Source: Rhododendron vialii
Taxonomy: Eukaryota > Streptophyta > Magnoliopsida > Ericales > Ericaceae
NCBI RefSeq assembly: GCF_030253575.1
Contig: NC_080561.1
Location: 6,129,001 to 6,193,000 of the forward strand
Direction: 5' to 3'
DNA length: 64,000 nucleotides
Shown here: positions 15,317 to 40,830 of the stretch, in pieces
Numbering within the stretch: the stretch's first letter is position 1
How the letters are laid out: each line of letters starts with the position of its first letter
Program-made: the position numbers and the translations under genes
The notes under the pieces: generated by a model
What the model was told of the DNA's origin: nothing
What the model saw: only the letters and a program-made list of their open reading frames with translations
Databases searched by the model: none

Positions 15317-17099
15317 TGTAGAGACCCGTAAATTCATTTTATAATTTTATTGTTTTATAAATGGAAAAGTGATGGATTAATGAAAATATTAGAGTTGGGG
15401 GTCAAAATGTGAGAAGTTAAAAGCCATGGGTGTTCGTGTGATTAGTGCATGTGTGTGCCGTGTATACCAGGAGAAATCCTTTTCTTTTTTTTTCATTTTC
15501 ATCTCATCACTCTCTCGTCTCTCGATCTCTCTCACTCTCTCACCCAATCACTCAAAGCTCACAACAATCAAGCTTAATTCCATCGTCTACTAGTATATTC
15601 GAGCTTGTATCGTGTTGGACAAAGCTTGGTTCGGCGTATTGTTGCTTGATTTGGACTCCGGAAGCTAGGGTTTGCATAATCTTCTTGATTTCGGTTTGGA
15701 TACTCGAGGTAGGGAATTCTACCTCTCTTTATATGTTAGTTGAGTTCTCCTATGTCTTATTGAGCATTTCCATGCTTTGTTTGAGCTTGTATTGATTGTT
15801 GTTTGGCCTGGATCAAAATCTGTTATCTGATGAAAAATCGCCAAATTCCGGATTCCTACCGGTAGGCCCGTCCTTTCTACCGGTAGAACGTTGTTGCGTT
15901 GTCAAAAAAATTTAGCTTCCTACCGGTATAACTTTTCTCCTACCGGTAGGTTGTCTCAAATTTTCATCGTGCAAAAATGGTGGCCTTTCTGTTTCGTATC
16001 TGTACCGGTAGGACTTGATCCCTACCGGTAGAAGCAAAAAAAATTTCCAAATCTCTACCGGTATCACCCAGTTCCCTACCGGTAGACACCAGTAAAAAGG
16101 CCAAATTTTCCTGTGCCGTTCTGCTTTTATTTTCCCAAGCCTTAAGCCTTTTCCATGAGTTCAAATGATTATTTTATTATATATGATTAAGGCTTGGGGC
16201 AATCATGCATGATGTCAGGATCATTGAGTTATCCAACTTGGATATGTCCGAATTTGTGAAATTTTTGAAATGGTAAATATGGGCCTCTTGCACAATATTT
16301 GTACGAACGATACACTTGAACTTGTGAACGACGCGCAAACATTCAGGGCCCATCGACGGGTGGGTGCCTGGCAGGGGATTTCAGGGTCCCATAATTAGCC
16401 TGGCAGGAGCTTATGCTCATAATAATTTTTCAAGGCCTAACCTTCAAGGTGGGTGCTTGGCAGGGGATATCGGGGTCCCAAAATTAGCCCGGCAGGAGCT
16501 TCGGCTCAGACACATAAATGACACGACATGTTGAGACACGATTTGAACGGATATGATTTATGGGTTGAATAAAAGAAAATTTGGAGATTTTGGGACACTT
16601 GTTCATGAAAGTTGTGCTTCCTCCGTTGTCTTGTGATCTTTTATCATTTGTTCATTCGTCTCGCTCATTTGCATATAGAGTTTGCGTAGACTTTTCTACT
16701 GGGCTAGTGTAGCTCAAGCCTTATATTATTTTCAGGTGCTAACCCGGAACCCTAGCTTGCATTGCTTGGCGTGCTTGGAGTGTGGTCATTATTTTTGAAA
16801 GCTAACCGAAGGAGTTACTTATTCATCGTTGTAAATTTATTTTGAAAGATGTATTCGTAACTTAAATTGTAATTCTTTTGATTTGGAATATTGTAACCCT
16901 TAATCCTCTTTCGACATTTGATACTTATGTTGATTTGGGGCCGTTGAGCCTATATTGTAATATTTTGGAAACTTTGTGAATTTGGAAGCTTAACTAAGGA
17001 AATGAGAACACAGTGATCTTTTGGGTACCGTACGGATATTTGTGAGTATTTTTATTATGTAAATCATTTATAATTATGTTTAAAATCGAGGACGTGACA
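15317..17099 (+). repeat. Gypsy 5' LTR
   Basis: 1783 bases from TGTAGAGACCCG to GAGGACGTGACA. It contains a TATAAA near 15355, a CT-rich leader (15480-15545), a donor-like AGGTAGGG (15707-15714), eight ACCGGT palindromes (15858-16083), two imperfect copies of a GGTGGGTGCYTGGCAGGGGAT repeat (near 16360 and 16450), and an acceptor-like TTTTCAG (ending 16735). Confidence 0.9.
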
Positions 17100-17356
17100 A
17101 CTTGGTATCAGAGCATAGGTTTAGAACACCTAGAAACCGTGGGGAGACGTTTTGTCTCATGGGTTCAAAATGTCGCTCCTTCTAACATAATTTGTGCATG
17201 CTTGTGTGACTAACATTCATGTGATTACTTGGCATTGCATTTTCGTTATCGTAGAGTGTCGTAGAGTTATTAACCCGTGTTAGGAAGTTGAGGGCTTCGA
17301 CCTCATAGTAAAAAATGTTGTGGTTAATGGTTTCTTTTCTTATATCGTGTAGTAAG

Positions 17357-18760
17357 ATGCCTCCGAAGACCCGTGTCAGACGAGTTGGGGCTGGGACCCG
17401 GGGTGGTCGAGGCCGTGGTCGTGGCCGTGGGGTACCTCTTGAGGACGAGGTTAGTCAGCATGGGGAGAACCCAGGTGGGAATTTGGGGGCTGGGATCGGT
17501 CGAGGTGCAGGAGTACCTCAAGCTCAAAATCAGTTTGCTAGGGATCTCGTCGCAGCACTTACAGCTGCAAATCTTCTAAACCAAGCACCTAGAGAGAATG
17601 TCGAGGATCGAGCTATGGTGGCGATGCGGGAGTTTAGCCGTAGAAACCCTCCAGTGTTCGATGGGACTAGTAGCGACCCTTTGGTAGCGGACCATTGGCT
17701 AGCCCAAATCCGTAAACTTTTCAGAGCTCTTAATATCACAGAAGATAACATTAGGGTAGGTATCGTGGCGGTGCAACTAGTTGGGGAGGCCGGTGAATGG
17801 TGGGAATCCGTCCTTGAAAGCAGGAAAGATGCAAGGAGAGCGGCAAGGACCGCGGCTCAAATAGATGAGCCAGACGTTGAGAATTTGACATGGGCTGAAT
17901 TTGAGGCGTTATTTGAGGAGCAGTATTTTCCAGAAACTAGCCGCGAGCAATTGAGGGACCAATTCGAAAAGTTAGAGCAAGGAAGCATGACCGTGTTGGA
18001 GTACGCACAAAAATTCCAATCTTTATCTCGCTTTGCGCCAGAGTTGGTGGCGACGGAAGAGAGGAAATGTAGACGCTTTGAGAAAGGACTGCACAACACC
18101 GTAAGGAGGATGGTAATGGTACAACGCAAGACAAAATACGCCGAGGTAGTTGAGTGTGCGAGGAGCATTGAGATACCGAAAGAGGCGCAACGTAATAGAG
18201 GGGTTTGGGAACCACGACAACCAACCGTGAACACGAGTTCTTCATCGGGGAGCTTTGGAAGCCAAGGGAGGAAAAGGACAAGGGAACCATCTCAGACACC
18301 GCAGGGTAGTTCGTCGAACTTTAGGCCGCCTTCTTCTTTGGGGATCCGGGGTGCTTTGTCTAGACCTTCAACCGTGTGCTATAAGTGTAATCAACCTGGA
18401 CACGTTCGTGCTCAGTGTCCACGCCTCGGGGAAACTTGTTATATTTGTGGTAAAACGGATCATTTCGCAAGGAGTTGTCCTCAAGGGTCGGGAGCGCGCA
18501 GTGAGTCAGGTTCTGTGCAGCAGCCGGGAACGGGGCGTAATGTGGGCCAGCCGTTTAGGGGTACTCAGAGGCAGCAGCAGCCTTACTTTCGTCAGACTAC
18601 GTCAGCTCAGAGTTCCGGGGTTGATAAGGGAGCGAGTTCTTCCGCGCCTGCTCAAGGTTCTGGTCAGAGAGGGGGTTTTATGCAGGGTCAGGGTACCCAG
18701 GGGCGAGTTTTCAACATCACTTCTGCTATCCCACCTACCACTTCTCAGGCTCCGGAAACT
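17357..18760 (+). mobile_element. Gypsy gag region
   Basis: Starts MPPKTRVRR at 17357 after the LTR and leader. An Arg/Gly-rich N-terminus is followed by the retrotransposon gag core (PLVADHWL, EWWESV, FEEQYFPE motifs) and two CCHC zinc knuckles (CYKCNQPGHVRAQC and CYICGKTDHFARSC, near 18379-18480). The core is clearly related to the gag of the non-autonomous element at 30171-38206. Confidence 0.9.
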
Positions 18761-18789
18761 TCTGTTGTGAGGGGTAATTTCTTTTGTTC

Positions 18790-21700
18790 AACTCATTTGC
18801 TAAAGTACTCTTTGATTCTGGAGCATCGCATTCTTTCATTGCTGCATCATTTATGTGTACTTTGGAATTGGAATCGGAAACTATTAGTCCTCTTTTGTTT
18901 GTCGAAACACCTCTAGGGGGTAGAACACCTCTTGACCGTATTTGTCGAGATTGTGAGTTGGTTATCCGTGATTGTCGTTTCATGTTCGACTTCATCGTTT
19001 TAGGAATGTCGGGGTTTGATCTTATCTTGGGAATGGATTGGCTATCCAAATTTCATGCTACCATCGATTGTTTTAAGCGTCGAGTTCGTATTTGTCCACC
19101 CGAAGGTCCTTGTTTTGAATTCTTTGGGGAGCGTCGAGAACCATCGGAACCTTATTTACGTGGGCCTCGTGAGCTAGGGTCGGTTTATTCATTGTTGGCG
19201 AGCTTGACGTTAGATGAGGATGCCTTCATGCGTGGGGAGTTACCCTTAGTGGTTTGCGACTTTCCGGATGTATTCCCGGAAGAGTTACCTGGTTTACCTC
19301 CCGAGCGAGAGATTGAGTTCACCATTGATCTACTTCCCGGTACCGCTCCTATCTCCGTACCTCCATATCGTTTCGCACCCGCCGAATTGAGAGAGCTAAA
19401 GACTCAGTTACAAGAACTGGAGAACCTAGGATTCATTCGTCCAAGTACGTCTCCGTGGGGAGCACCGGCTCTTTTTGCGCAAAAGAAGGATGGTTCACTC
19501 CGTTTGTGTATTGACTACCGTAAGCTAAACCGAGTCACCATTAAGAACAAGTATCCCATGCCTAGAATCGATGATTTGTTCGACCAACTTCGGGGTGCCA
19601 CTTGTTTTTCTAAAATCGACTTGAGGTCCGGTTATCACCAATTGAGGGTTCGTAGAGAGGACATCCCTAAAACCGCTTTCCGCACTCGTTATGGCCATTA
19701 TGAGTTCGTTGTTATGCCTTTCGGACTGACGAACGCTCCAGCTACTTTCATGGACCTAATGAATCGTATTTTCCGTGCTTATCTTGATCGCTTCGTCGTC
19801 GTCTTTGTGGATGATATTTTGATCTATTCGCCTACGGAGGAGGAACACCAAGCCCATCTCACCATTGTTCTTGAACTCTTGAGAGAGCACCAGCTATACG
19901 CTAAACTTAGTAAGTGTGAGTTTTGGTTATCCGAAGTTAAATTCTTAGGCCACGTGGTTTCGAAGGGTGGAGTGTCTGTTGATCCCGGAAAGATAGAGTC
20001 GATTATGAATTGGCAGCGACCAAAGAACGTATTCGAGATTCGAAGCTTCTTGGGTTTGGCTGGGTACTACCGCCGTTTCGTTTTAGACTTCTCTCGTTTA
20101 GCGGCACCAATGACTAGATTGACACGTAAGGGGACCCGATTCGTTTGGAGTGACTCGTGTGAGACAGCCTTTGAAGAGTTAAAGAAGCGATTGACTACCG
20201 CGCCGGTTTTGATTGTGCCCGACCGTGGAGTTGGCTACTCTGTGTATTGTGACGCGTCTAAGGAAGGGTTGGGATGCGTGTTGATGCAGGCGGGACGAGT
20301 GGTAGCGTATGGGTCACGACAGTTGAAAACACATGAGCGGAATTACCCGACACACGATCTAGAACTTGCAGCCGTCGTATTTGCTTTGAAAAGTTGGCGT
20401 CATTACTTGTATGGTGAGAAGTTTGAAGTCTTTTCCGATCATAAAAGTTTGAAATACTTATTCTCTCAAAGGAACTTAACCTTCGTCAACGCCGTTGGAT
20501 GGAGCATTTGGAGGATTATGACTTCGAATTACAATACCACCCGGGGAAAGCGAACGTTGTGGCTGACGCATTGAGTAGAAAACCGACACATCTAGCGAGC
20601 CTAGCGATTCATGAGTGGAAAGCAATGAACGACTTGGGCTCCTACGCCATGCACTTTGAGGAAGTTCGGGAAGGGGTCACGTTATGCAACTTGACGGTGC
20701 AATCGACTTTATCGACGAGAGTGATTGAGGCCCAGCAACATGATGAGGAAGCAGAGGAACTCCGTACTAGATTCCTTAGTGGAAATGCTCAAGAAGGGTG
20801 GATGATTCACGCCGACCGAAGCTTGCGCTATCAAGGAAAGTTGTTCGTACCCATTTCGTGTCGGGAAGAAATCTTACGAGAGTTTCATCATTCTCCGTTA
20901 GCCGTTCACCCGGGAGGAACGAAAATGTATCATGATTTGCGTAGACAATTTTGGTGGTCCGGAATGAAGAGGGACGTTGTGATTTTCGTGTCCAAGTGTC
21001 TCACGTGCCAACAAGTGAAAACCGAACATCAACGACCCGCGGGGGAATTGCAACCATTACCAGTGGCCGAGTGGAAGTGGGAGCATGTGACCATGGATTT
21101 CGTTACGGGTTTACCGAGATCGCCAAGGGGGCATGATGCTATTTGGGTAGTTGTGGACCGTTTGACTAAAACCGCTCATTTCCTACCCATTCAAGTCACC
21201 GATTCCGTTGATGCGCTTAGCCGTTTGTATATTCGAGAGATCATTCGACTTCATGGGATTCCCGTGTCCATCGTGTCCGATCGAGATCCGAGATTTACCG
21301 CACGTTTTTGGCAGAGTTTACAAGCTGCTTTGGGCACTAATCTTCTATTTAGTACCGCGTATCATCCTCAAACCGATGGGCAATCCGAGAGAACGATTCA
21401 TATTTTGGAAGACATGCTTCGGGCTTGTGTGATGGATTTCCGGGGTAGTTGGGAGGACCACTTGCCATTAGTTGAGTTCGCGTACAACAATAGCTATCAA
21501 TCTAGTATCGAAATGGCACCGTATGAGGCTTTGTATGGAAGACCGTGTCGATCGCCTGTGTGTTGGACCGAATTGGGAGAGGCTACGTTTGTAGGACCGG
21601 ACATGATTAAGGAGACCTCCGAGAGCTTGAAAGTAATTCGTCAACGCCTTAAGGAAGCTCAAGAGAGAACGACCGAACAAGTGAAGGTGATTCGCCAAAG

Positions 21701-22190
21701 ATTGTTAACCGCGCAAAGCCGACAAAAGAATTATGCCGATCGTCGTCGTCGCCCGTTGTCATTTGAAGAAGGGGATCATGTATTCCTCAAAGTATCGCCG
21801 CGTAGAGGTTTGTCTCGTTTCGGGAAAAAGGGAAAGCTATCGCCGCGTTATATCGGGCCGTTCGACATCATTGAGAAAATTGGGGAGGTTGCGTATCGTT
21901 TGGCTTTGCCACCAAGGCTATCGGGTGTTCATGATGTGTTTCACGTGTCTATGTTGAGGAAGTACGAACCGGATCCATCGCATGTGTTAGAGTGGTCCGA
22001 ACTCGAGTTAGAGGCCGATGCGTCTTATGGGGAAGAACCGGTCCGTATCCTAGATTCGCGCGATCAAGTGTTGAGGGGTAAGACGATACCATTGGTGCGA
22101 GTCTTATGGAGAAGTCAGGATAGCGAGGATCAAACTTGGGAACGAGAAGATGAGGTTAGAGAAAAGTATCCACATTTATTCCCAGAGTAA
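18790..22190 (+). mobile_element. Gypsy pol region: PR-RT-RH-IN-chromodomain
   Basis: Domains in order: aspartic protease ([11 protein letters not shown], near 18805), reverse transcriptase (SPWGAPALF near 19450; catalytic FVDDILIYS near 19803-19830), RNase H (VYCDAS near 20240), integrase with HHCC zinc finger (HPGGTKMYH to CLTCQQ, near 20908-21012) and DDE core (TMDFVTGLPRS near 21091), and a chromodomain-like end (IPLVRVLWR near 22090). The domain order is the Ty3/gypsy order. Confidence 0.9.
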
Positions 22191-22341: not shown

Positions 22342-24124
22342 TGTAGAGACCCGTAAATTCATTTTATAATTTTATTGTTTTATAAATGGAAAAGTGATGG
22401 ATTAATGAAAATATTAGAGTTGGGGGTCAAAATGTGAGAAGTTAAAAGCCATGGGTGTTCGTGTGATTAGTGCATGTGTGTGCCGTGTATACCAGGAGAA
22501 ATCCTTTTCTTTTTTTTTCATTTTCATCTCATCACTCTCTCGTCTCTCGATCTCTCTCACTCTCTCACCCAATCACTCAAAGCTCACAACAATCAAGCTT
22601 AATTCCATCGTCTACTAGTATATTCGAGCTTGTATCGTGTTGGACAAAGCTTGGTTCGGCGTATTGTTGCTTGATTTGGACTCCGGAAGCTAGGGTTTGC
22701 ATAATCTTCTTGATTTCGGTTTGGATACTCGAGGTAGGGAATTCTACCTCTCTTTATATGTTAGTTGAGTTCTCCTATGTCTTATTGAGCATTTCCATGC
22801 TTTGTTTGAGCTTGTATTGATTGTTGTTTGGCCTGGATCAAAATCTGTTATCTGATGAAAAATCGCCAAATTCCGGATTCCTACCGGTAGGCCCGTCCTT
22901 TCTACCGGTAGAACGTTGTTGCGTTGTCAAAAAAATTTAGCTTCCTACCGGTATAACTTTTCTCCTACCGGTAGGTTGTCTCAAATTTTCATCGTGCAAA
23001 AATGGTGGCCTTTCTGTTTCGTATCTGTACCGGTAGGACTTGATCCCTACCGGTAGAAGCAAAAAAAATTTCCAAATCTCTACCGGTATCACCCAGTTCC
23101 CTACCGGTAGACACCAGTAAAAAGGCCAAATTTTCCTGTGCCGTTCTGCTTTTATTTTCCCAAGCCTTAAGCCTTTTCCATGAGTTCAAATGATTATTTT
23201 ATTATATATGATTAAGGCTTGGGGCAATCATGCATGATGTCAGGATCATTGAGTTATCCAACTTGGATATGTCCGAATTTGTGAAATTTTTGAAATGGTA
23301 AATATGGGCCTCTTGCACAATATTTGTACGAACGATACACTTGAACTTGTGAACGACGCGCAAACATTCAGGGCCCATCGACGGGTGGGTGCCTGGCAGG
23401 GGATTTCAGGGTCCCATAATTAGCCTGGCAGGAGCTTATGCTCATAATAATTTTTCAAGGCCTAACCTTCAAGGTGGGTGCTTGGCAGGGGATATCGGGG
23501 TCCCAAAATTAGCCCGGCAGGAGCTTCGGCTCAGACACATAAATGACACGACATGTTGAGACACGATTTGAACGGATATGATTTATGGGTTGAATAAAAG
23601 AAAATTTGGAGATTTTGGGACACTTGTTCATGAAAGTTGTGCTTCCTCCGTTGTCTTGTGATCTTTTATCATTTGTTCATTCGTCTCGCTCATTTGCATA
23701 TAGAGTTTGCGTAGACTTTTCTACTGGGCTAGTGTAGCTCAAGCCTTATATTATTTTCAGGTGCTAACCCGGAACCCTAGCTTGCATTGCTTGGCGTGCT
23801 TGGAGTGTGGTCATTATTTTTGAAAGCTAACCGAAGGAGTTACTTATTCATCGTTGTAAATTTATTTTGAAAGATGTATTCGTAACTTAAATTGTAATTC
23901 TTTTGATTTGGAATATTGTAACCCTTAATCCTCTTTCGACATTTGATACTTATGTTGATTTGGGGCCGTTGAGCCTATATTGTAATATTTTGGAAACTTT
24001 GTGAATTTGGAAGCTTAACTAAGGAAATGAGAACACAGTGATCTTTTGGGTACCGTACGGATATTTGTGAGTATTTTTATTATGTAAATCATTTATAATT
24101 ATGTTTAAAATCGAGGACGTGACA
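22342..24124 (+). repeat. Gypsy 3' LTR
   Basis: Second 1783-base LTR, offset exactly 7025 bases from the 5' LTR, with the same eight ACCGGT palindromes (22883-23108). No difference from the 5' LTR was noticed by eye. Confidence 0.9.
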
Positions 24125-24129
24125 GTCTA

Positions 24130-27100
24130 TCAACTGAAGCAAGCCATAGGTAAAACAACACAAGAAGATTCTAGTGTCTCCACATATTTCACGAAGATGA
24201 AAGCACTATGGGATGAACTTAGTTCTGTCTCTACTGTGCAGCCTTGCACTTGTGGCCATGGAAAAGCGAATGCTGCTCTCCACCAACAAGATCGTGCCAT
24301 GGAGTTCCTTCAAGGCCTCCATGAGCGCTATTCTAGTCTGCGAAGTCAGATTCTTTTAATGGAGCCATTTCCAAGTGCCGCCAAGATTTATGCTCTCGTG
24401 CGACAAGAAGAGAAGCAACAGGAAATACACTCTTCAACCCCTTCAGTTACCATGCCCGAAGCTGCTGCACTGACAGCCAACTCAGTTTCTACCAACGGCA
24501 AAGAAAATTGGTCTGCACCCTCTCAGAATCGTGCTAATGTTAGCGCCAATTTTAGGGGTCATCATCCAAACCGATCATCCAATCGGTACGATGTAAATTC
24601 TAATCAACGCAACATTGGTGGAGATCATCGCCAAACCGGGAAACCACGGATGCACTGTGATTACTGTGATCGTGACAACCATAACCGAGATACATGTTAT
24701 AGGTTGCATGGTTATCCCACAGATAAACCAAGGAGTTCTTCAAATAACCGCAGACTTTCAAGTTCCTCTTCTTCAGGAGCTTCCCGACCCAACGACCGAG
24801 CAATGGTCGCTGCTCCATTGATAACTCAGGACCAATACAACAATATTTTGGCCGTACTTTCACCAGGTAGCACCAATTTGAATGCCAACTTAGCAGGTAT
24901 TGCCCTTTCCACCCCATCATTTTCTGCTTGGATCATCGACACAGGTGCTAGTAACCACATGTGTTCTTCCTTGTCTTTTTTCTCATCTTATAGTCCTTGC
25001 ACCAATCCGTCCTTTGTTCAATTACCTGATGGTTCTGATGCACAGATCACTCATATCGGAACTGTGAAGCTTTCTCCAACTTTACAACTTGATCATGTCT
25101 TTTATATTCCATCTTTTAAATTCAATTTGCTATCTGTCAGTCAGATTACAAAGTCTCATCAGTACTCAGTTACTTTTTTTGATGATCGTTGTGTTTTCCA
25201 GGACCTGTTCGCGAAGAAGACGATTGGGATGGGTAGTGTACATGGTAACCTTTACTATCTTCAAGCTCCTGTTGTACTGCTTGTTACCGGGACTCCCGCT
25301 ATTGATATTTGGCATTGGCGGCTTGGACATCCATCTCATCATAGAGTATTAGAAATAGCTAAGAGTGTTTCTTCTATCTCTCATTCGAATAACTATGTCT
25401 GTGACATTTGCCCACAAGCAAAGCAACCTAGACTAAGGTTTCCCAACAGTTCCATTTCTTCTAGTAAACCTTTTCAATTAATCCATGTTGACATTTGGGG
25501 TAGTTTTTCCCAACCTTCTATGAGTGGTGCTCGATTCTTCCTTACTATTGTGGATGATTTCTCACGTTGCACTTGGATATATCTTATGCGTTACAAGTCT
25601 GACACAAAATATCATTTGAAATCCTTTTTTGCTATGGTGAAAACTCAACATCACTGTCAAATCAAACATATATTTTCTGGCAATGGTGATGAATTTTTTC
25701 CAGAAATCCAACAGATCAGGTCAGACAATGGGGCAGAATTTTTATCCAAAGAAATGCAACAATTTTTTTCCGAGAATGGTGTAGTTCATCAACGCAGTTG
25801 CGTGTCTACACCGCAACAAAATGGTGTTGTAGAACGCAAACATAGACACCTTTTAGAGGTTGCTCGATCCTTAAGATTTCAGGCCAACTTACCAATATCC
25901 TTTTGGGGGGAGTGTATTCTCACAACTGCATATTTGATCAACAAGATTCCCACACCCTTACTTCAAAACAAATCGCCTCATGAAGTTTTTTTTTTCAGCC
26001 CCACCTTCATATTCTCATCTTCGTATATTTGGTTGCCTAGTATTTGCTCATAATGCTAACATTAAGCACAAATTTGACCAACGTGCAAAGCCTGGAGTCT
26101 TTGTTGGGTATCCATACGCACAAAAGGGTTACCGAATCTATGATATCCAATCCAAAACCATGTATGTGTCAAGAGATGTTGCATTTCATGAAACCATTTT
26201 TCCTTTTCGAGATATTTCTTCAAATGTAACTCCATCACCAGTAATTCCTTTACCTATTGAGGATCATCCACACTTTGACTACGCACCTACTCACCAAAAA
26301 CCCCCCATTATTCAGACCTACCAACGCCATCGGAAAAACAAAGTTAATAACCAACAAGCAAACATTCAGCCTAGCCCACCATCCTCCCTTGAGGAACCAT
26401 TAACTGAACCTCCCAACACTCTTCTGGGTGATTCCACCAGTATACCACTTGCCATTCATTCCACCCGTGAGCGACGGAAGCCGTCTTACCTTCAGGATTA
26501 CCATTGTTCAGCGGTTGCTAATGCTACACTCCCATCTCCAACGGCTTCTAAACGGACAGGTAGTCTTTACCCCCTTGATCATTATATCACATATAGTCAC
26601 TTCTCAGTTGCACATCGAGCCTTTCTTTCAGCCATTTCCTCCATAGAAGAGCCCAAGTCTTTTTCCCAAGCAGTAAAATGTCCACAATGGCGCCAGGCAA
26701 TGGCTATAGAAATAGCAGCTTTGGAAAAGAATCACACATGGAGTCTTACTAATTTACCTGCCAACAAAAAGCCTATTGGGTGCAAGTGGGTTTACAAAGT
26801 CAAACACAGATCCGATGGTACCATAGATCGTTATAAAGCTCGCTTAGTTGCCAAGGGATTCACACAAGTTCATGGGCTTGACTATCATGATACCTTTGCA
26901 CCTGTAGCCAAACTTGTCACAGTTCGAGCTCTTTTATCTATTGCAACTGTTAAAAATTGGTCCATTCAACAACTTGACGTCAACAACGCATTTCTTCATG
27001 GTGATTTGGATGAAGAAGTGTACATGACTCTTCCACCTGGGTTTGCTCAACAGGGGGAGACTCGAGTGTGCAAGTTACACAAATCCTTATATGGATTGAA

Positions 27101-28184
27101 ACAGGCATCTCGCCAATGGTTTGCCAAATTCTCTCAGATTATTCATCAAGCTGGTTTTTCTCAATCGCGGGCTGATTATTCCTTGTTTACCCGCATTAGC
27201 GGACAATCTTCAACATTTGTTCTGGTTTATGTTGACGATATAATTGTAACAGGAAATGATCCTTCAGCGATTCAGCATCTCAAACAGTTTCTTGAGAAGC
27301 ATTTATTCATCAAGGACCTTGGGCATCTCAAATACTTTCTCGGGATTGAAGTTGCACGATCTCGACAAGGTTTATTTCTATGTCAACGCAAATACACGCT
27401 GGACATTCTCAAAGATGCTGGATTATTGGGTGCCAAACCATCAGCTTTTCCTATGGAACAACATCTTCATTTGACACCTACTGATGGCACCACATTATCA
27501 GATCCTTCTGCTTATCGTCGCCTGGTTGGCCGTCTTATCTATCTCACAGTCACTAGACCCGACATTACTTATTCAGTCCATATTCTCAGTCAATTCATGC
27601 AGGACCCTCGCACTACCCATATGGATGCTGCTAATCGTGTACTTCGCTATCTCAAAGGGTCTCCGGGAAAAGGGATCCTACTCTCTTTGAAAAGCTCGTT
27701 GACTTTAAGTGGTTTTTGTGATTCTGATTGGGCAGGATGTCCCACAACCCGTCGCTCTACCACAGGTTTTTGCATCCTCCTTGGCTCCAATCCAATCTCA
27801 TGGAAAACCAAGAAACAAACCACCATTTCTCGCTCTTCCGCTGAAGCCGAGTATCGTGCCATGGGCACCCTCACATCTGAACTTCAATGGCTTACATATT
27901 TACTAAATGATCTTGGCATTGGTCACACCTCACCTATCAATCTCTATTGTGATAATCAAGCCGCTATCCATATTGCGGAGAATCCCGTCTTTCACGAGCG
28001 TACGAAGCACATTGAACTTGATTGCCATTTTATCCGCGAGAAGATCCAGTCCAAGTTGATATCTCCTTGCTACATACGGTCGTCAAACCAAATTGCGGAT
28101 GTATTCACAAAGCCATTGGGCAAGGATTCCTTTCTGCGTCTCATTAGCAAGCTGGGCGTTACTCACATACACGCTCCACCTTGA
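24130..28184 (+). mobile_element. Copia gag remainder and pol region
   Basis: Gag resumes directly after the gypsy target duplication. Seen in order: gag zinc knuckle CDYCDRDNHNRDTC (near 24650), protease WIIDTGASNHM (near 24930), GAG-pre-integrase WHWRLGHPSHH (near 25310), integrase core (VDIWGSFS; QIRSDNGAEF near 25715), reverse transcriptase (GCKWVYKVK near 26780; FVLVYVDDIIVTG near 27215) and RNase H with SRSSAEAEYRAM (near 27830). The integrase-before-reverse-transcriptase order is diagnostic of Ty1/copia. Confidence 0.9.
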
Positions 28185-30170
28185 GGGGGAGTATTTGTAG
28201 AGACCCGTAATTTCGTCATTTAATTTTTGGTATTTATAATGCAATTGGTCTATATATATATATATATGAATTTAAGTTTTGAACAAATGTTGTTAATGCG
28301 TGAGGGTGTATGAGTTGGGTCAATGTGAGATGACTTGTAAGTCGTGGGAGTTGACGTAACACAATAGAAGTGAAAGGGTGTAAGTGTTATTTGTGCTATA
28401 TAAGTCACAAAAAATGGGGCAGGAAATCACTTTCCCTTTTTCTTTTCCGGCGCCTTTCTCTCGGTCTCCTCTCTCTCACTCCCTCAACCAAATTCTTGCT
28501 ACTCCACCATCAATCCTTGAAAAACCCACGCACATCTCTTCATCCTCGGCCCTCGGATCGCGTGGGAAGAGCTCGGTGGAGGCATATTTCGGATTTGGAG
28601 GCTAGGGTTTGGTTTGAGCTCAAAGCTTGGTCTTGATACTTGAGGTAGGGATCTCCTACCTTTCTTTACATGTTTAAGTGTTAGTTGGATGTACAAGAAT
28701 CAAGTTTGATTATCTATTTTGAGTCTTGAATAAATCTTGAGCATGCTGAAAATTTCGTGGGTTTTGGTAATCTGTCTTTTGGGAGCCCTTCTGCTAGGAA
28801 TCAATTTTTGGTATCTTCATAACAGTTAAAGTGCGTTTCAATACGAAGATTTCGGTACCAAGATCATGCAAAACCGATAATCACACAATTAGTTATGAAT
28901 TTTTGAATGCTGACTGTTTGCTGGATGTACGAATCTGTGCGAGGCTGTCTTCTTTTAAATTTCTGGGCATGATGAACACTTTGGGTGGCTTTGGGTCTTT
29001 TACAGGAGTTGCATATTTAAGTTAAGAAGAGATTGGTGTTGGAATCAAGTAATTTGGTCAAGTATACAATTTTTGGTGAATTTCTAAAGTAGGGTTGGTC
29101 GACTAGGGCGAAAATGGTTGCGAATCTGTATTTCTTTTGATTGTTGGGTTAATCTCCTCTTGTTTCTGAACCTGGGATTTTTACTGAGTGTAGGGCTTGT
29201 AGTGGTGCTACTTTTGGCGTTGGTTTCAATATTTTTGGGTTTAAGTTGGAAGAGTTATGATTTTTCAATCAATTTTACTTATTTCCGCGTAGAATCTGAC
29301 AGCACAGGTAGACTTTGGTAAAATGGCCATAACTCCTAGCTCGGGACTTGAAATGACGCACCGTCTGTTTTGTTAGAAACTAGACACATAGGGTTTTCCA
29401 ACGATACATCCCATGCATCATGGGCATGTCCGAGCGATAACAGATTTGCACCCAAAGTTGACCTAAATTCTGCCTTGCACCAGTTTTTACTGTTATGTTG
29501 AAGCTATAATCGCAAGGCCGTAGTTAGGTTACCCGAACTCTGTTTTTGATGTATGACCTATGGATTCAAAGAAGAAGAAGTCTACTTTTCAATTGTTTAA
29601 GTGTCGCCCTGGAATTCATGTTGTTTAATTGGGATATGAGAACTAGTGAGCATAAGGGTTAAAATACTTGTAAACGATTGGAATAGAAAATGGATTAGAT
29701 GGATGATACGATCGATGATAAATTCAGTTGTAGAATGTTTGACGCGATGTGTAAATTATTCGATGTCTTTCCATGAGATTGAGTCTCTGGGCTTGCAGGA
29801 TACTTGCAGTGAGTTAAACAGGATTTGGTGAATCACTTGGCATGAGTGCATGGTTGTTCAGCATTGATGGGTACTACAAAGATGAGGATCGTTATAAGTA
29901 TTTGCGAATTAGACTCTTAATGGAGATGTCACAAAGGGGGTCTATTAGGTGGTAATATGAGATGTGAAATAAATGGTTGATTTACAATGTGAAGGATGTG
30001 GGTTTTTGTGCTTTCTTTATTGAAATGATGAAGACAAGATTATTTACGTGTAACTGAATCTAAGTATTGGTGTGAAAGATGTGTTTTGCTATGTGTGGGG
30101 ATTAGAGAAACGGTGGATAAAGAGATTGCTTGTTAGTGAGAATATGTGACACTAATTGAACGATAATGAA

Positions 30171-32388
30171 TGTCATGCCCTCGATTTTTAACATAAATAA
30201 AGATAGTTTTTTTGTAAATAAAACTCCTCACGATATCTTACATAATACACCAAAAGATTTCACCATGTCCTAATCATTAAATTACAGATCCAACTCCAAG
30301 AGTTTGAATATATTACATCATAAAAAAAAATAGGTTCCATTACATTCCCAAAAAAATGCATTTTATCAAAATGTCCATAGGTCTCTTTTACCACCTCTTT
30401 CGAGAATATCACTTGAATGCATGCACTTCGCTCTATGTTACTGCTCCGGGTTCATACCTGAAAAATGATAGGTTGAGCTACACTAGCCCAGCAGAGAAAT
30501 CTACACAACCATTATATGCAAATGGGATGACAGGTAGAATGAATAACGGAGACAAGGTAAGGTATCTCAAAGTAGAAACAAAACATGATTAGTGATTGTC
30601 CCAATATCGACGACATAAATGAAGTTCCGTGACTATACATCAAGACTATAGGCTAACCATAACACCCTATTCCGAATACTCTATCCGCTCCTCGACTTCG
30701 CTTTAGTCATAACGTCACATGTTTAAAGAGAAAGACCTGTTGATACATGACTCTATGGTGTTGTCTCAGCAACCAATCACTTCTCTCGTATATTCATCAA
30801 ATAAACCCTTACGTTTACTCATATATATATCACCGTTGCAATCCCACATCACATGGCGTAAACAAGTGCTCCTTCCGGGCTATTCATGGAGTCCCGCTAC
30901 TCCCTACAAATACCTTCCTCACTAAAGGAACTAAATCACATCACGTAGCATAAGTCACCGTACCACAATTCCTCCAACACACCTCACCACTCAACCATTC
31001 ATCTCAATCACATATAATGATTTCACAACGAAGACTTATTCACAAGAGGTAGTAGTTGTAATAGTAATAAGGATAATCCGACTTCATTCAACTCATAATC
31101 ATTACACCATTCATTCTTCATATAAGCATTCACATATCAAAGGATATTCTCTCACAACGATTCATAGATTTTCACCTTGCAACTCGTAAAATCGTATAAG
31201 TTACGCAAGAGGTATACCACATATCAAACACAAAGAAATGTCTCGCGTGTCCACGCCTAGCGTTGTTTAACTCAAAAGAGTGTTCTACGTGTTCGTTTTT
31301 CACATCGTATGTCAACACATATAACCTTCACCCACCTATATTCCTTATATTCTCTAAACCCTCGTTTCGGTGTCATAAGACTCATACGGAACCCAACGAC
31401 CACCATAAAGCCTAGTATACCACTAGCCTCGTCAAACCACTCAATTAAGTACTTAGGAGAACCTAAGAATATCCATGTCTCACCCAAACGATTCTAAGGA
31501 AAAGAATTTTCCAACATCTACGAACATATCTATCTTATTTTGGCTACCAAATCTTATTGATTAAGAATTTGGATGTGAGACCACCACCATTGGAAAGTAG
31601 ACTTCCGGCACATGAATTTCGGTATAAAATTTACCCAAAACGAAGTTCGGATGAAAAAGTTATGCCCTTCCGAAGTTTTGCCAAAATGCTGAATTTTTCA
31701 TTTCCTACCGGTAGGACACATTTTCCTACCGGTAGGAGACCACAATTTCACGAAAAATGACTCTACTGGACAGCGTTTCTACCGGTAGGGCCAAAACTCC
31801 TACCGGTAGGACTTGGGTTTTCAGTGCACGATTTTCAGATTTCACCAGAACAATTCCAACAACAAAACCAATGATCTAGGGTGCGATTCAAACACCAAAT
31901 CAACACATAAACATATAATAGTTGTGAGAAATCCCTACCTCGAAGTCGAAGAACGAAATCCAAGCCCAACCAAGCAAGCCCTAGCTCCGAAAACTCCGAA
32001 TCATCCGAATACTCTTCTCCGAGCTCAAACCCACGAATTTCCAAGCTCTATAACACTTGAATGCGAGAACTTTGCGGCGGATTGAGGTGGGTTCGAGGTA
32101 TTTTGGGGTGTTCGAGTGTGAGAGAGAGAGAGAACGAGAGAAGCCGAGAGAGAGAGAGATCGGGAGGAGAGAAAGAGAGTTGGGGATTTTTTTCCTCTAC
32201 ACCCTCACACACACACATATATATACTAGGACACACACACCAACCACACTTGCACTCCCTCCATTTTTAATCCTATCACATTGACCCCAAATCAAATAAA
32301 TTCAACAAATTTCACATTTACTCGACAGTCTAACATTAATAAACCTTTAAACGATTTTTTTTTTTTGTTGAAAATACGGGTCTCTACA
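30171..32388 (-). repeat. TR-GAG 3' LTR
   Basis: On the plus strand it reads TGTCATGCCCTCG to GGGTCTCTACA, the reverse of the TGTAGAGACC...GTGACA ends of the other gypsy LTRs here. It carries four ACCGGT palindromes (31707-31807), a GA-rich run (near 32120-32180) and a CA-rich run (near 32205-32250). Confidence 0.9.
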
Positions 32389-33984
32389 TCCTACCCTCCT
32401 TAAAGAAATTTCGTCCCGAAATTTGCATAGAATAAATGAAAGCACACCATCAATGGATTTCTTGTCCTAAGGGCCGTGTTCATCACACAACGCTTCGTAT
32501 CCGCCACTTCCGTGTCCAAAATGCAAGAAAAGTAGAAAACTCTATAATGCCACAACTAACTAGCTTAGCTTTTTACTAAACAATTGCCAAGTTCCGATGT
32601 TCATACACGTCAAATCACGAAGTTGTCGTATTCATACAAATCATAGTCATGTTACCATCTAATTCCAGTCTCACAAACCATATCCATTCTCATTACTTCC
32701 GACTAACCAATTCTGGTTCCATGGACCGCGTCCAAACACAAAAGAGAATTTCATAACGTTGTAATTCAACAACCTTGTCAAGCAATACGTAATCGAAAAG
32801 TTCTAAGATTAACTCATCCATCCCAAGATTTACTAGATTCTTCGCGCACGCTTACAGGGAAATCAACTTTCATACATTTCTCCTTTCACCTCATTTCTTT
32901 ACTCCCCGACTTACTCAAATTATTAAGACTCGCACAAGTAGAACTCTAATAGTTCTTAATACTAATTCAAGACAAATTCCCTCAAAAGACAAATGCCGAG
33001 TAGTTGTTAAAGTGTCCAACACGATGAAGTCTAAACTAAACAATGATCATGAATTTCCAACTTATATTTTCCAAAGCCATGGTGAAGTGTTAGTTTTGAT
33101 GAAAATTTTGCCCCCTCCTTGAAAACTCTTGTTCAAGTAGTTGCCAAACCATTGAAACATGCCCATGTGTGACAAAATTCTATAGAATTTGAAAGGAAAT
33201 GTTCATTTCGGAACGACATTATCAACAATTAATTACGAACAGCTCACTTGGTCATTTGAAAATAATGACAATTTTGTCAACATGGAAATGGACTATGATG
33301 TAGCCGACTCCAAGTCTATACCGTTATCATTTTTGAAAATGATCTATACCGTTATAAATTTGGAAAATGAACTATGCAAAGATTCAATTTTCACCAAGCA
33401 TTATCCCTTTCCGAAAATTTTTGAGTTCAAAATATGTACATCCGTAAGTGTAACAACTTTCTAAACCAAGACCCACCACTCCACACATTTCACTATATTT
33501 ACGCGGCGCTCCAAGTAAAGAATTCAATTCATGTTCGGCATATGTCCACAACATCCATGTAGTCTTACTTATTCAATATCTCACGAAGGATTAATTAGGC
33601 TATTGAAAATCTCAATAAGACCATAATCTATAAAGTGAAAGGCATGCAAAAAAAATCATCAAATCATAAGGTATAACAAAATAAGGAGTTAAGATTAGAG
33701 ATTTCAAGCATCACGTAACGTTACATCTAACTACGAGCTTTGGGTCACCCCATTCAAACACTTCCTATCGATCATCTATTTAACACGTAGCAAGTACCTA
33801 TACGCACATCATCATCTATCCAGTATCGTGTTCCAAAAGCAAATTCCACACGCTAAGCTTACATTACAAGTCAAGCATGTAGATTAAAACTAAACAGCAA
33901 CCGATTTCATATACAATTACCATAATAGACTAACCAGTTGCAAACCCACTGTACGAATTAATGGTTTACACATCATCGAACACA

Positions 33985-34350
33985 TCTACGCATCAACGGG
34001 CTCACACAGTACCCAATACGACCACGGGCTCACATAGTGCCCAATACAATGGGTTCACACAGTACCCAATATAGTACGGGCTCACATAGTACCCAACACA
34101 CTACGGGCTCACATAGTGCCCTATATGACAACAGGCTCACATAGTGCCCAAAATACCACAGGCTCACACAGTGCCCAATATAGTACGGGCTCACATAGTA
34201 CCCAGCACACTACGGGCTCACACAGTGCCCTATATGACAACAGGCTCACATAGTGCCCAAAATACCACAGGCTCACACAGTGCCCAATACCATCACGGGT
34301 TCACACAGTACCCAATACAACCACGGGCTCACTTAGTGCCCAAACTTCAT
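33985..34350 (-). repeat. Tandem array in the TR-GAG internal region
   Basis: About 13 imperfect copies of a 26-28 base unit with the core GGCTCACATAGTGCCCAA. Copies alternate between GTGCCC and GTACCC and between ACGGG and ACAGG starts. Located 3' of gag in the element's own orientation, in untranslated sequence. Confidence 0.85.
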
Positions 34351-34569
34351 AACTCGTGGCTCTAAGAAGCCCAATAGTAATTTAGTTCATTTCAATCCCA
34401 CAAGACCTTGCACGATTTCTATTCATTTTATCAATTTTGAGTATTTTCATCCCATTAGTCTAGTTGTCACAACACTTAGATTTTATCAGACAAGTTCATA
34501 GAGACAACTCTGCAATGCTATCCAACACTAGAATAGACCATACACTTCATAATAACAATCATTTGGCAA

Positions 34570-35733
34570 TTAAGCACTTTGTATACGCATAAGTAATCTC
34601 AACATAACATATAAATTCACGTTACCTTGCAACGCGGTATGAGACGCATGACCCGACCCCGTGGGTCTTTGTACGCTCCCTCTGCTTGTCGATTGTGGAC
34701 AATCTACCGCTAAGTGCCCCGGATGACGACATCGATAGCAAACCCGAGGTGGTCTCTGACCATGATATTCCTTCTCCTGAGGACAGTCTACTGCACGATG
34801 GCCCGACTGGCGGCATCGATAACACACAATTGTTGATCCCGACGGAACTCCTGACGTTCTGGAAAGATTAGGTGGTTCTGAACTATGCTGGCCCGAGGTG
34901 GACCAAAATTGATCTCTTTGTCTCTTCCTGCCTTGGCTCCCAGATGTTTCTATAGATATGTTCTTGCTAATGGTTTGTTTCCTCGACTCCCGCACTTTCG
35001 CCTCCTCTGGTATTTCCTCCGTATACTCAATACTTCTAGCACACTCGATAATGTCAGAAAACCTTTCAATTCGTTGACCTACCACAAACTTCTTGATAGA
35101 CAGACATAACCCTTTCTCAAAACGCCTACATTTCCTACCATCGGTTGCAACTAACTCTGGCGCAAAACGGGACAAGTTTTGGAACCTAGTGGCATATTCT
35201 GAAACGGTCATGTCACCTTGATCTAACCTTTCGAATTGGTTTCTAAGCTGTTCGCGATACGACTCTGGAAAATATTGGTTTTCAAAAAGTGTCTCAAATT
35301 TAGCCCATGTCAAACTTTCCTCAACCGGCTCAATTTCCTGATTTGCAACTCCAGCCGCCCTCCTAGCATCTCTCCTTACTCCTAAAACAGATTCCCACCA
35401 CTCGTTCGCCTCACCGATAAGTTGACAAGCTACTATACTCACCCGTAGGTCGTCCTCCGTAATCTTAAGGGCATTGAAGATCTTACGAATTTGTGAAAGC
35501 CAATGGTCGGCCACAAGGGGATCGCTACTCTCCCCATCAAACTGAGGTGGATTTCTACGGCTAAATTCTCTCATGGCTACTATGGCCCGACTGTCCGCGT
35601 TATCCCTAGGAGGTGGTTGCAAAAGATTAGCTGCCGCAAGTGCCGCTACAATATCCCTAGCAAGCTGATTCTGTCCTGCCCCCATTCTCGGATTCCCAAT
35701 CCTACCCCGCCTATTCTCAGGTCTTGGAGGCAT
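34570..35733 (-). mobile_element. TR-GAG gag frame
   Basis: The gag frame starts MPPRPENRRGR at 35733 on the minus strand. The core (MREFSRRNPPQFDG, PLVADHWL, EWWESVLG, FENQYFPE, SRFAPELVAT) follows the gag of the 15317-24124 element residue by residue over long stretches. Two CCHC knuckles are seen: CYRCRQSGHRAVDC and CYRCRHPGHLAVDC. There is no protease motif after it. The frame looks open; no break was noticed. Confidence 0.88.
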
Positions 35734-35988
35734 CTCACTACAAAGAAACAATGAAAAGATCATCAACAAAGGAATACACTGCGAATCTCCAACTCCACCA
35801 ATCCCATCTAACAACTCTACGCCATTATACGGTAACATAAATGCAATGCCACATAGTTGGATACATATCAATCACTCAATAGCACATAAGTCATGTCACA
35901 ATGCAATAATATTTTTTTTTTGAACCCATGAGACTCAAAGTCTCCCCACGGTCTCGAGGTATTCTAAACTTATGCTTTGATACCAAGT

Positions 35989-38206
35989 TGTCATGCCCTC
36001 GATTTTTAACATAAATAAAGATAGTTTTTTTGTAAATAAAACTCCTCACGATATCTTACATAATACACCAAAAGATTTCACCATGTCCTAATCATTAAAT
36101 TACAGATCCAACTCCAAGAGTTTGAATATATTACATCATAAAAAAAAATAGGTTCCATTACATTCCCAAAAAAATGCATTTTATCAAAATGTCCATAGGT
36201 CTCTTTTACCACCTCTTTCGAGAATATCACTTGAATGCATGCACTTCGCTCTATGTTACTGCTCCGGGTTCATACCTGAAAAATGATAGGTTGAGCTACA
36301 CTAGCCCAGCAGAGAAATCTACACAACCATTATATGCAAATGGGATGACAGGTAGAATGAATAACGGAGACAAGGTAAGGTATCTCAAAGTAGAAACAAA
36401 ACATGATTAGTGATTGTCCCAATATCGACGACATAAATGAAGTTCCGTGACTATACATCAAGACTATAGGCTAACCATAACACCCTATTCCGAATACTCT
36501 ATCCGCTCCTCGACTTCGCTTTAGTCATAACGTCACATGTTTAAAGAGAAAGACCTGTTGATACATGACTCTATGGTGTTGTCTCAGCAACCAATCACTT
36601 CTCTCGTATATTCATCAAATAAACCCTTACGTTTACTCATATATATATCACCGTTGCAATCCCACATCACATGGCGTAAACAAGTGCTCCTTCCGGGCTA
36701 TTCATGGAGTCCCGCTACTCCCTACAAATACCTTCCTCACTAAAGGAACTAAATCACATCACGTAGCATAAGTCACCGTACCACAATTCCTCCAACACAC
36801 CTCACCACTCAACCATTCATCTCAATCACATATAATGATTTCACAACGAAGACTTATTCACAAGAGGTAGTAGTTGTAATAGTAATAAGGATAATCCGAC
36901 TTCATTCAACTCATAATCATTACACCATTCATTCTTCATATAAGCATTCACATATCAAAGGATATTCTCTCACAACGATTCATAGATTTTCACCTTGCAA
37001 CTCGTAAAATCGTATAAGTTACGCAAGAGGTATACCACATATCAAACACAAAGAAATGTCTCGCGTGTCCACGCCTAGCGTTGTTTAACTCAAAAGAGTG
37101 TTCTACGTGTTCGTTTTTCACATCGTATGTCAACACATATAACCTTCGCCCACCTATATTCCTTATATTCTCTAAACCCTCGTTTCGGTGTCATAAGACT
37201 CATACGGAACCCAACGACCACCATAAAGCCTAGTATACCACTAGCCTCGTCAAACCACTCAATTAAGTACTTAGGAGAACCTAAGAATATCCATGTCTCA
37301 CCCAAACGATTCTAAGGAAAAGAATTTTCCAACATCTACGAACATATCTATCTTATTTTGGCTACCAAATCTTATTGATTAAGAATTTGGATGTGAGACC
37401 ACCACCATTGGAAAGTAGACTTCCGGCACATGAATTTCGGTATAAAATTTACCCAAAACGAAGTTCGGATGAAAAAGTTATGCCCTTCCGAAGTTTTGCC
37501 AAAATGCTGAATTTTTCATTTCCTACCGGTAGGACACATTTTCCTACCGGTAGGAGACCACAATTTCACGAAAAATGACTCTACTGGACAGCGTTTCTAC
37601 CGGTAGGGCCAAAACTCCTACCGGTAGGACTTGGGTTTTCAGTGCACGATTTTCAGATTTCACCAGAACAATTCCAACAACAAAACCAATGATCTAGGGT
37701 GCGATTCAAACACCAAATCAACACATAAACATATAATAGTTGTGAGAAATCCCTACCTCGAAGTCGAAGAACGAAATCCAAGCCCAACCAAGCAAGCCCT
37801 AGCTCCGAAAACTCCGAATCATCCGAATACTCTTCTCCGAGCTCAAACCCACGAATTTCCAAGCTCTATAACACTTGAATGCGAGAACTTTGCGGCGGAT
37901 TGAGGTGGGTTCGAGGTATTTTGGGGTGTTCGAGTGTGAGAGAGAGAGAGAACGAGAGAAGCCGAGAGAGAGAGAGATCGGGAGGAGAGAAAGAGAGTTG
38001 GGGATTTTTTTCCTCTACACCCTCACACACACACATATATATACTAGGACACACACACCAACCACACTTGCACTCCCTCCATTTTTAATCCTATCACATT
38101 GACCCCAAATCAAATAAATTCAACAAATTTCACATTTACTCGACAGTCTAACATTAATAAACCTTTAAACGATTTTTTTTTTTTGTTGAAAATACGGGTC
38201 TCTACA
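35989..38206 (-). repeat. TR-GAG 5' LTR
   Basis: Same length as the LTR at 30171-32388, offset 5818 bases, with four ACCGGT palindromes (37525-37625). Practically identical sequence shows a very recent insertion. Confidence 0.9.
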
Positions 38207-38245
38207 ATGAAAGCCACGGATCCACCGTAAGGTGTGATGCCGAAC

Positions 38246-38965
38246 ATGGGACGTACGGGGGTCCTAAAAGCCCGGAATTGATTCAAAGGATTTTAGTGGA
38301 CGCACGGGGGTCCTAAAAGCCCGGAATTGATTCAAAAGATTTTAGTGGACGCACGGGGGTCCTAAAAGCCCGGAATTGATTCGAAGGATTTTAGTGGACG
38401 CACGGGGGTCCTAAAAGCCCGGAATTGATTCAAAAGATTTTAGTGGACGCACGGGGGTCCTAAAAGCCCGGAATTGAATCAAAAGGATTTTAGTGGACGC
38501 ACGGGGGTCCTAAAAGCCCGGAATTGAATCAAAAGATTTTAGTGGACGCACGGGGGTCCTAAAAGCCCGGAATTGAATCCAAAGGATTTTAGTGGACGCA
38601 CGGGGGTCCCAAAAGCGCGGAATTGAATGAAAGGATTTTAGTGGACGCACGGGGGTCCTAAAAGCCCGGAATTGAATCCAAAGGATTTTAGTGGACGCAC
38701 GGGGGTCCCAAAAGCGCGGAATTGAATGAAAGGATTTTAGTGGACGCACGGGGGTCCTAAAAGCCCAGAATTGAATCCAAAGGATTTTAGTGGACGCACG
38801 GGGGTCCCAAAAGCCCGGAATTGAATGAAAGGATTTTAGAGGACGCACGGGGGTCCTAAAAGCCCGGAATTGAATCCAAAGGATTTTAGTGGACGCACGG
38901 GGGGGTCCTAAAAGCCCGGAATTGAATCCAAAGGATTTTAGTGGACGCACGGGGGTCCTTAATGC
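38246..38965 (+). repeat. 49-base minisatellite inside the solo LTR
   Basis: About 15 head-to-tail copies of a 49-50 base unit with the core GGACGCACGGGGGTCC followed by TAAAAGCCCGGAATTGA. Units vary by single bases. The run of open frame on the minus strand across it is an artefact of paired 49+50 spacing. Confidence 0.9.
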
Positions 38966-40116
38966 CCGGAAATGAAATCGAAATATGTGACAGTGAAAAC
39001 GGAGAATCTTCATAGTATTTAGCATCATACTAAGATTGAAATGTCAGTTTGAGTTGATAACTTGGATTGTCCAGTATGTCAATACATGTTTTATATTCCT
39101 TCTTTTAGACCTCCAAATCATTGTGGCTTGTTTTCCTGATATGTGGTGGTCAACTTGTTATGTGTGAATGCATATTTGGTACCTTGTGGTGCTATGCATT
39201 GCGAGAGTTTCATAAAAGACATCTTATTGTGACGAGATTTTTACTAGATGTTAAACTTGAGATTTGAAGATTGATTTGGGGTTGACGGGTGAGTTTCCTT
39301 GTTGTTGAGGTGCGGTATTGTTTGACTTGTTATTGCTTACCTTATATTCTAACTCCACATGCCTAGCGTGTATATTTTGGGGTGAGGTTGGCTAGTTGTA
39401 TGAGAAATGAAAGTGAAAACATTTCGTTAAAGAGCTAAGATTAATCTTTAGGTCATTGAAATGGAAATGAAAAAGCAAGGATTGATTTGGATAACGTCGT
39501 AACGGTAAGCTGAGATTTTTAAAAGTATTGGTGTGAGCGGGTGATAGTGTTGGTGTTTGAGAAATGGAGTTAAAACATTTTCCAGCGTGAGTATGACATT
39601 TTGAGCTTCACTTTTGACAAAACAAGTATGCTTTTGAAAAATGTTTTACCTTGTGATCTGTCTTCACTTCTGCATGTAATTTAGGTATGGATATCTCTAC
39701 GAGCTAGTGTAGCTCACCCTATCCTTTCAGGTACTCGCCATGGCACTTAGCTTGGATTGCATGGAGTGCACATTGAGACGTCTCTTGAGAGCTTCATTGG
39801 AATCATTAAGGAGGTGTTTTATCATCTAGTTTAATTCATGTTGTGTACTTTACTCACAATTGAAGGTTGTATCTTTTGGTTAGAACATATGTAAAGCTAG
39901 GTATAAACTCCTCTCTTTGATTATTGTGAAGCCCTTTTAATGGAATACGTTTGGGAGACTTTATGTAAAAAAAAAAAATTAGAGAGAAGAAGAAGAAGAG
40001 ACTTTGATTCTTTGTTTGGATTGGCTTGACATTTAATGGTAAAGATAGTTGAGGAAAAAGACTTTTGTTTGTAGAAAACATATTATTGTTTTAGTTGAAA
40101 ATCGAGGGCGTGACAG

Positions 40117-40727: not shown

Positions 40728-40830
40728 CTAATGGTTGAGAATGTTGAGGAGGATAACTCTCGTTTTGATTAACCATCTAAACAAACACTCAAGTCCTTCT
40801 TCAATATCTTGGATGCATGACTCCATCTGG
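40728..40830 (-). pseudogene. DUF241 3'-end fragment, copy 4
   Basis: Only the last 30 or so codons of a DUF241 gene remain: the segment matching MESSIQDIEEGLECLFRRLIKTRVILLNILNH and its stop. The rest is replaced at about 40831 by sequence that runs into a minisatellite. The 3' flank (40500-40727) aligns with that of copy 2, so this is the duplicate of copy 2 that lost its body. Confidence 0.75.

Follow-up and report, generated by a model that had tools for sequence, protein, structure and literature searches.

The LTRs of Sireviruses carry repeated-motif (RM) boxes, palindromic sequences that are kept amid diverged flanks and have been suggested to be regulatory (Bousios et al., 2010; PMC2829016). 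That paper describes them as dyads whose core is rich in CG, such as CGGTCGACCG, AGCGGTASTACCGCT and CACCGGACTGTCCGGTG, with a CGG-CCG core in 12 of 13, and as specific to Sireviruses relative to the classic retrotransposons compared there. The boxes belong to Ty1/Copia elements and number at least eight copies per element (linker and 3′ LTR counted), and of the copies in LTRs, 92% fall into the upper half, where they precede a TATA box and lie within CpG islands (PMC2829016). TR-GAG elements are defined as LTR elements with gag, or gag and protease, and no other pol domain (PMC6022998), and those of Arabidopsis can transpose though they lack most proteins (PMC8704663). The BARE1 and BARE2 families of barley combine parasite and helper, with a spliced RNA pool kept apart from the packaged one (PMC3735527), while in yeast a short palindrome near the 5′ end is reported to drive dimerisation of Ty3 RNA (PMC11381356). 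According to a 2025 review, plant elements are generally without introns, and the notable exceptions include Ogre and EVADE (PMC12786077).

The palindrome array described here is carried by two families within the window (the whole 64 kb stretch of DNA that was analysed): a pol-bearing element, A, and a gag-only element, B. It resembles the RM boxes in being a perfect dyad repeated in the LTR, with TACCGGTA occurring eight times in that of A and four times in that of B. Unlike in the boxes, the core is CCGG, its triplets overlapping in the opposite order to CGG...CCG, and the carriers are Ty3/Gypsy rather than Ty1/Copia elements, as seen from the Ty3_capsid matches of both gags and from the position of A's reverse transcriptase (RT) before its integrase. 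Where the boxes reach at least eight copies per element, the sites here number eight per A LTR and four per B LTR and are arranged in pairs; they also lie apparently downstream of the transcription start, in an intron-like segment, so that the position probably differs as well. Judged against the description in PMC2829016, the array is not a member of the Sirevirus boxes and functions like one at most. Among the matches listed from the open-licence literature, no title or opening of an abstract reported palindrome arrays in LTRs of Ty3/Gypsy chromoviruses, and none of the literature carrying the letters of the extended site, CTACCGGTAG, concerned plants or retrotransposons by the same measure.

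Like a TR-GAG element, B has LTRs, a primer site, a polypurine tract and gag only, and it fits the definition given in PMC6022998; the accessible text of that paper and of PMC8704663 makes no mention of an array common to a TR-GAG and a pol-bearing family. The relation of B to A, its presumed helper, recalls that of the BARE families, except that the BARE1 intron, of 104 nt, is situated outside the LTR, where gag meets protease, and that the BARE parasite lacks Gag rather than Pol (PMC3735527). Ty3 PAL6 is also short and palindromic and lies close to the 5′ end of the genome RNA of a Ty3-type element, but there a single 6-nt palindrome, at nt 391-396, is the active one, and it is not an LTR array (PMC11381356). 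If the leader intron proposed below is true, it would enlarge the small set of plant LTR retrotransposons in which splicing is known.

Nested elements and their intron-like leaders

The window, which its elements mark as plant-like DNA, holds a nest of LTR retrotransposons, the features of which are collected in Table 1. Element A, on the plus strand, is bounded by the target site duplication GTCTA. Its Pfam matches follow the order RVP_2, RVT_1, RT_RNaseH, Integrase_H2C2, which is the Ty3/Gypsy order of protease, RT, RNase H and integrase. The rve match scored 24.4 bits, below the Pfam cut-off of 32.6, and a Chromo match scored 24.3 bits, slightly below the curated cut-off of 25.1. The gag, RT and integrase ORFs occupy three different frames, though the LTRs of the element are identical; this could reflect mobilisation in trans, recoding or an error in the sequence.

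Table 1. Features of the nested elements, with positions in the window; the putative introns are read from sequence only.
Feature	Positions	Strand	Details
A LTR, first	15317..17099	+	1783 bp, identical to its twin
A LTR, second	22342..24124	+	1783 bp, identical to its twin
A gag and pol frames	17315..22190	+	gag 17315-18916; protease-RT-RNase H 18853-20574; integrase side 20499-22190
A array, first LTR	15856..16085	+	eight TACCGGTA, four pairs; core intervals 21, 43, 20, 62, 20, 33, 21
A array, second LTR	22881..23110	+	same eight-site array
Putative leader intron, A LTR	15709..16735	+	1027 nt; array at intron nt 150-375
Putative leader intron, other A LTR	22734..23760	+	
B LTR	30171..32388	-	2218 bp; begins TGTAGAGACCCG, finishes GGGCATGACA; gag-only element B
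Other B LTR	35989..38206	-	2218 bp; 1 mismatch vs 30171..32388
gag ORF of B	34570..35838	-	422 aa; Retrotrans_gag, Ty3_capsid, two zinc-knuckle stretches (zf-CCHC match)
B array	31705..31809	-	four CTACCGGTAG sites, two pairs; core intervals 21, 53, 21
B array, other LTR of same insertion	37523..37627	-	four CTACCGGTAG sites
Putative leader intron, B LTR	30458..31938	-	GTAGGG...TTTCAG, 1481 nt; array at intron nt 132-232
Putative leader intron, other B LTR	36276..37756	-	
Solo LTR C, third family of same type	28196..40115	+	target site duplication GTATT; interrupted by B insertion 30171-38206

Element B lies on the minus strand between copies of a 5-bp target duplication, ATGAA, and its two LTRs represent a single insertion. 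It keeps its own gag, and its primer site, polypurine tract and LTR ends are nearly those of A. We take the primer site to be of the initiator-Met type. A tblastn search at E 1e-3 with the RT-RNase H and integrase pieces of A found no match in B. In the non-coding part of B past gag, a tandem repeat of ∼27 bp extends over 33996-34343.

From the look of the LTR ends, primer site and polypurine tract, A, B and C presumably all belong to the Tekay/Del lineage. LTR C, which measures ∼3.9 kb without the B insertion, apparently lies within a Copia-like element that A also interrupts. Identical 241-bp direct repeats (14649-14889 and 40117-40357) flank the nest and are probably the LTRs of this Copia-like element, with ORFs at 24101-28184, the Copia call having been made by eye. 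The intron-like part of LTR C contains ∼12 copies of a 49-50 bp tandem repeat (38249-38983), and comparison of the 50-bp unit with the A and B LTRs gave no convincing match. A larger repeat family is represented at 5500-14560 and 40690-46200 by several diverged copies, some of them inverted.

All three LTR families share splice-like sites, donor-like at GAG/GTAGGG and acceptor-like at CTAGTGTAGCTCA...TTTCAG/GT. With the putative intron removed, and a start assumed at LTR nt 191 (A) and 221 (B), 9 of the 29 ATGs upstream of gag would remain in A and 19 of the 61 in B, which is still a large number. A CT-rich stretch is also common to A, B and C, and looks like the start region; the array lies downstream of it. 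A scan of the first 300 nt of each LTR found TATA-like sequences at nt 40 (A) and 164 (B), and the arrays begin at nt 541 and 581. The earlier note had put the array just inside the intron-like segment, a fair description given that it begins 150 nt (A) and 132 nt (B) into it. Two diverged copies of a GGCAGGGGAT...GGGTCCC...GGCAGGAGCTT block were also seen by eye at 16327-16536, within the intron-like segment of the A LTR.

LTR C has the same ends and splice-like sites as those of A and B and so offers the natural array-free comparison: ACCGGT is absent from it, a search for CTACCGGTAG with two mismatches allowed found nothing there, and none of its 8-nt palindromes is repeated. The array is therefore optional for this type of LTR and a feature of some families only.

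Sites, conservation and spacing of the array

Every site is a perfect two-fold palindrome, TACCGGTA, which extends to CTACCGGTAG in nine of 12; the T and A flanking ACCGGT are present at all 12 sites of both families. The shorter word was matched 24 times, at eight per A LTR and four per B LTR, with a maximum of one match across 1000 dinucleotide shuffles of each LTR. The extended word has 18 exact matches in the 64 kb, all of them within the four LTRs of A and B (five in each of A, four in each of B), while 100 shuffles gave a mean of 0.00 and a maximum of 0. Allowing two mismatches to CTACCGGTAG revealed no decayed sites in the A and B LTRs and added only the three ACCGGT-bearing A sites per LTR. 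Other 8-nt palindromes were considered if they had more than two letters and at least two copies within 150 nt, and the sole other one listed at three copies or more has three. The ACCGGT cores of B had been placed by the earlier note at 31707, 31728, 31781 and 31802, and these positions are exact, the full CTACCGGTAG beginning two bases before each. In the twin array the cores lie at 37525, 37546, 37599 and 37620, but they belong to the same insertion and so add no independent evidence. Since the two LTRs of one element represent one event, the independent comparison is that of A with B.

Searches outside the window were also carried out. A scan of viral contigs for paired palindromes returned 11 stretches, five of them with one common sequence; none resembled these LTR flanks when 60 bases on either side were inspected by eye, and on that judgement all 11 are taken for unrelated. 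The LTR-border pattern occurred in 0 stretches of the viral contigs, and a similar pattern in 0 of the bacterial and archaeal genomes. Pattern matches were obtained in three stretches for the RT piece of A and in 41 for the aligned gags, with no confirmed relative among them. Within the window, no known RNA family was found at gathering score.

By the Nei-Gojobori method, the synonymous difference between the gag genes of A and B is 0.79, whether the 223 well aligned codons or all 392 are counted, which is beyond correction, and the non-synonymous distance is 0.22 over the 223 codons and 0.38 over all 392. With the gags synonymously saturated, neutral LTR text is expected to be randomised, and most of it is. 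The surrounding LTR text does differ between the families, as previously claimed, and is mostly unalignable: plus-strand BLAST of the two LTRs at E 0.05 returned islands only, namely the two LTR ends, the CT-rich stretch, the array itself and the two splice-like sites, the acceptor-like one with ∼80 bp around it.

For a comparison base by base, the A array was split into two four-site units, each of which was aligned to B. Unit 1 and B have the same letter at 39/40 site bases and at 46/101 bases between sites (Fisher 6e-10, bases treated as independent), unit 2 at 38/40 site bases and 32/91 others (Fisher 3e-11, bases again treated as independent). As the sites were picked by ACCGGT, these agreement figures are inflated. 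Restricting the comparison to the two bases on each side that lie outside the picking rule leaves 15/16 against 22/60 in the flanks for unit 1 (p 4e-5) and 14/16 against 19/60 for unit 2 (p 1e-4). Over the three unit-to-unit comparisons, TACCGGTA is kept at 12/12 and the next base on each side at 10/12, with 1-8 of 12 further out. Thus, in the one A-B comparison, the ACCGGT sites are better kept than their neighbours, contrary to the first of the refuting outcomes that the earlier note had named. Recent independent tandem expansion of the arrays, the account that the earlier note had set against its own, does not apply: units 1 and 2 of A are alike at only 32/90 bases outside the sites, which argues that no recent tandem expansion took place. 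Only the spacing and a GTAT variant common to A sites 3 and 7 suggest that the A array may be a duplicated two-pair unit. Site-by-site descent between A and B was not significant when judged from the flanks, as 5 of 24 possible orders, the true one included, scored as high as the true one or higher.

It could be argued that the cluster has no function and arose by chance or by mutational processes such as slippage, conversion or recent exchange between the families. Only two independent families were compared here and the descent of individual sites is unproven, both of which leave some room for this explanation. However, the shuffles put the chance expectation of such sites at none, and the contrast between site and between-site agreement in both units fits neither recent exchange nor recent tandem growth, which makes an origin of this kind distinctly unlikely. 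The earlier proposal that retention of the array suggests function stands in part: the sites have outlasted their neighbours across saturated families, but LTR C, of the same type, does without ACCGGT.

The in-pair core distances are 20 or 21, or about two helical turns, and those between pairs are 33, 43, 53 and 62, of which three (33, 43 and 53) step by ten. The ten intervals taken together show coherence at a period of 10.5 bp (R 0.89, phase 0.00). Taken alone, the four between-pair distances give p ∼0.02 with periods of 10.0-10.7 allowed, or 0.005 with the mean in-pair distance added, and their best period is 9.75 (R 0.98) against an R of 0.85 at 10.5. The spacing fits the helix repeat, in a test that is weak, post hoc, based on few data and nominally significant only.

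Candidate functions of the array

We favour, with a probability of roughly 0.5, the reading of the array as a cluster of DNA binding sites for a dimeric host factor that acts on the LTR promoter from a position inside the putative leader intron. One sequence-specific host protein would bind each palindrome as a dimer, and the array, ∼350-580 bp downstream of the guessed transcription start in the first part of the intron-like leader, would serve as a downstream (intronic) enhancer or another control element of the promoter. The conservation of the sites against a saturated background, their spacing, their position downstream of the CT-rich stretch and the precedent of the Sirevirus boxes speak for this reading. 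Kept from a common ancestor, the array would place gag-only B and pol-bearing A under one regulator and lead to their co-expression, an arrangement fitting for an element in need of another's enzymes. That two long-diverged families keep the same spaced word suggests that one regulator may recognise both, and the shared array likewise suggests possible co-regulation of the gag-only and pol-bearing families. Against the binding-site reading, LTR C does without the array, the position appears to be downstream of the start where that of the Sirevirus boxes is upstream, and the same sites also yield a stable predicted RNA fold. Among the matches listed from the Arabidopsis DAP-seq and binding-motif literature, none contained ACCGGT, and no candidate factor emerged. 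A is a supposed helper of B, and the pol ORFs of the copy seen here are spread over three frames.

A short, sharply bounded site common to both LTRs offers a concrete handle on how a non-autonomous retrotransposon comes to be active at the same time as a family able to mobilise it, as the site can be removed, displaced by half a helical turn or used as protein bait.

The palindromes can also pair with one another, and the array could act in the transcript instead, through hairpins that affect translation control, export, splicing control or stability. The arrangement of the sites in pairs agrees with this, as do the predicted RNA folds, at -55.9 kcal/mol for the B array against -33.9 (sd 3.7) in shuffles (z -6.0) and -90.5 for the A array against -57.6 (sd 4.5; z -7.3). 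However, any set of identical palindromes would fold likewise, and the z-scores follow from the repeats. Furthermore, the predicted B fold joins sites 1-4 and 2-3, not the close pairs. Positions 5, 6 and 7 from the centre match in 9, 7 and 5 of 12 in-pair cases, which is no covariation signal, since the values within one site (9, 6 and 5 of 12) and across other sites (9.2, 5.7 and 5.3) are similar. The eight core bases are invariant across sites and show no compensated change. Identical letters without compensated change point to recognition of the letters, not of a fold, by a protein on DNA or RNA, and we consider the hairpin explanation unlikely.

The position of the array within an intron-like segment of both families raises another use at the RNA level. 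Retroviral packaging signals are generally confined to unspliced RNA, and an array in an intron would be carried by unspliced RNA alone, where it could serve as a tag for dimerisation or packaging of genome RNA, with B RNA entering particles as A's does. The LTRs retain the segment, so that the RNA copied into them would presumably have been unspliced, and B has its own gag along with nearly the primer site, polypurine tract and LTR ends of A. The Ty3 palindrome (PMC11381356) and the separate spliced and packaged RNA pools of the BARE families with their parasite (PMC3735527) provide precedents. Nevertheless, the intron is a prediction from sequence, and Ty3 is described as using one of six palindromes (PMC11381356), where the arrays here hold four to eight identical ones. 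Other self-complementary words would do equally well for such a tag, and none was seen in these LTRs; LTR C, moreover, has the intron-like structure with neither ACCGGT nor another repeated 8-nt palindrome. We therefore regard a packaging tag as very unlikely. The fuller version of this proposal, in which this Ty3/Gypsy lineage has a true leader intron, the array marks full-length genome RNA for selection and pairing during packaging, and the gag-only family keeps it in order to be treated like its helper's RNA, is given similarly little credence.

The sites may be read at the level of chromatin too, as CCGG offers a methylation site in the CG context and another in the CHG context, and the array could be there for methylation or silencing rather than for a transcription factor. 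The array sites make up 8/12 of the CCGG in the A LTR and 4/7 in the B LTR, and CCGG is found in all sites, the latter being a consequence of the picking rule. For comparison with the CpG islands of the Sirevirus boxes, the LTRs as a whole have a GC content of 0.39 in both A and B, with CpG observed/expected ratios of 0.84 (A) and 0.93 (B). Methylation would require CCGG only, however, and not the outer T and A that are kept at 12/12 sites, making this explanation highly improbable.

Returning to a DNA-binding host factor, part of the extended site resembles a plant half-site: CCTACC/GGTAGG, which could be read as an AC-element-like MYB site. A MYB precedent exists in Tto1. CCTACC occurs in 9/12 sites and GGTAGG in 6/12, and as the outer T and A of TACCGGTA are present in all 12, the dyad core fits better than a MYB half-site.
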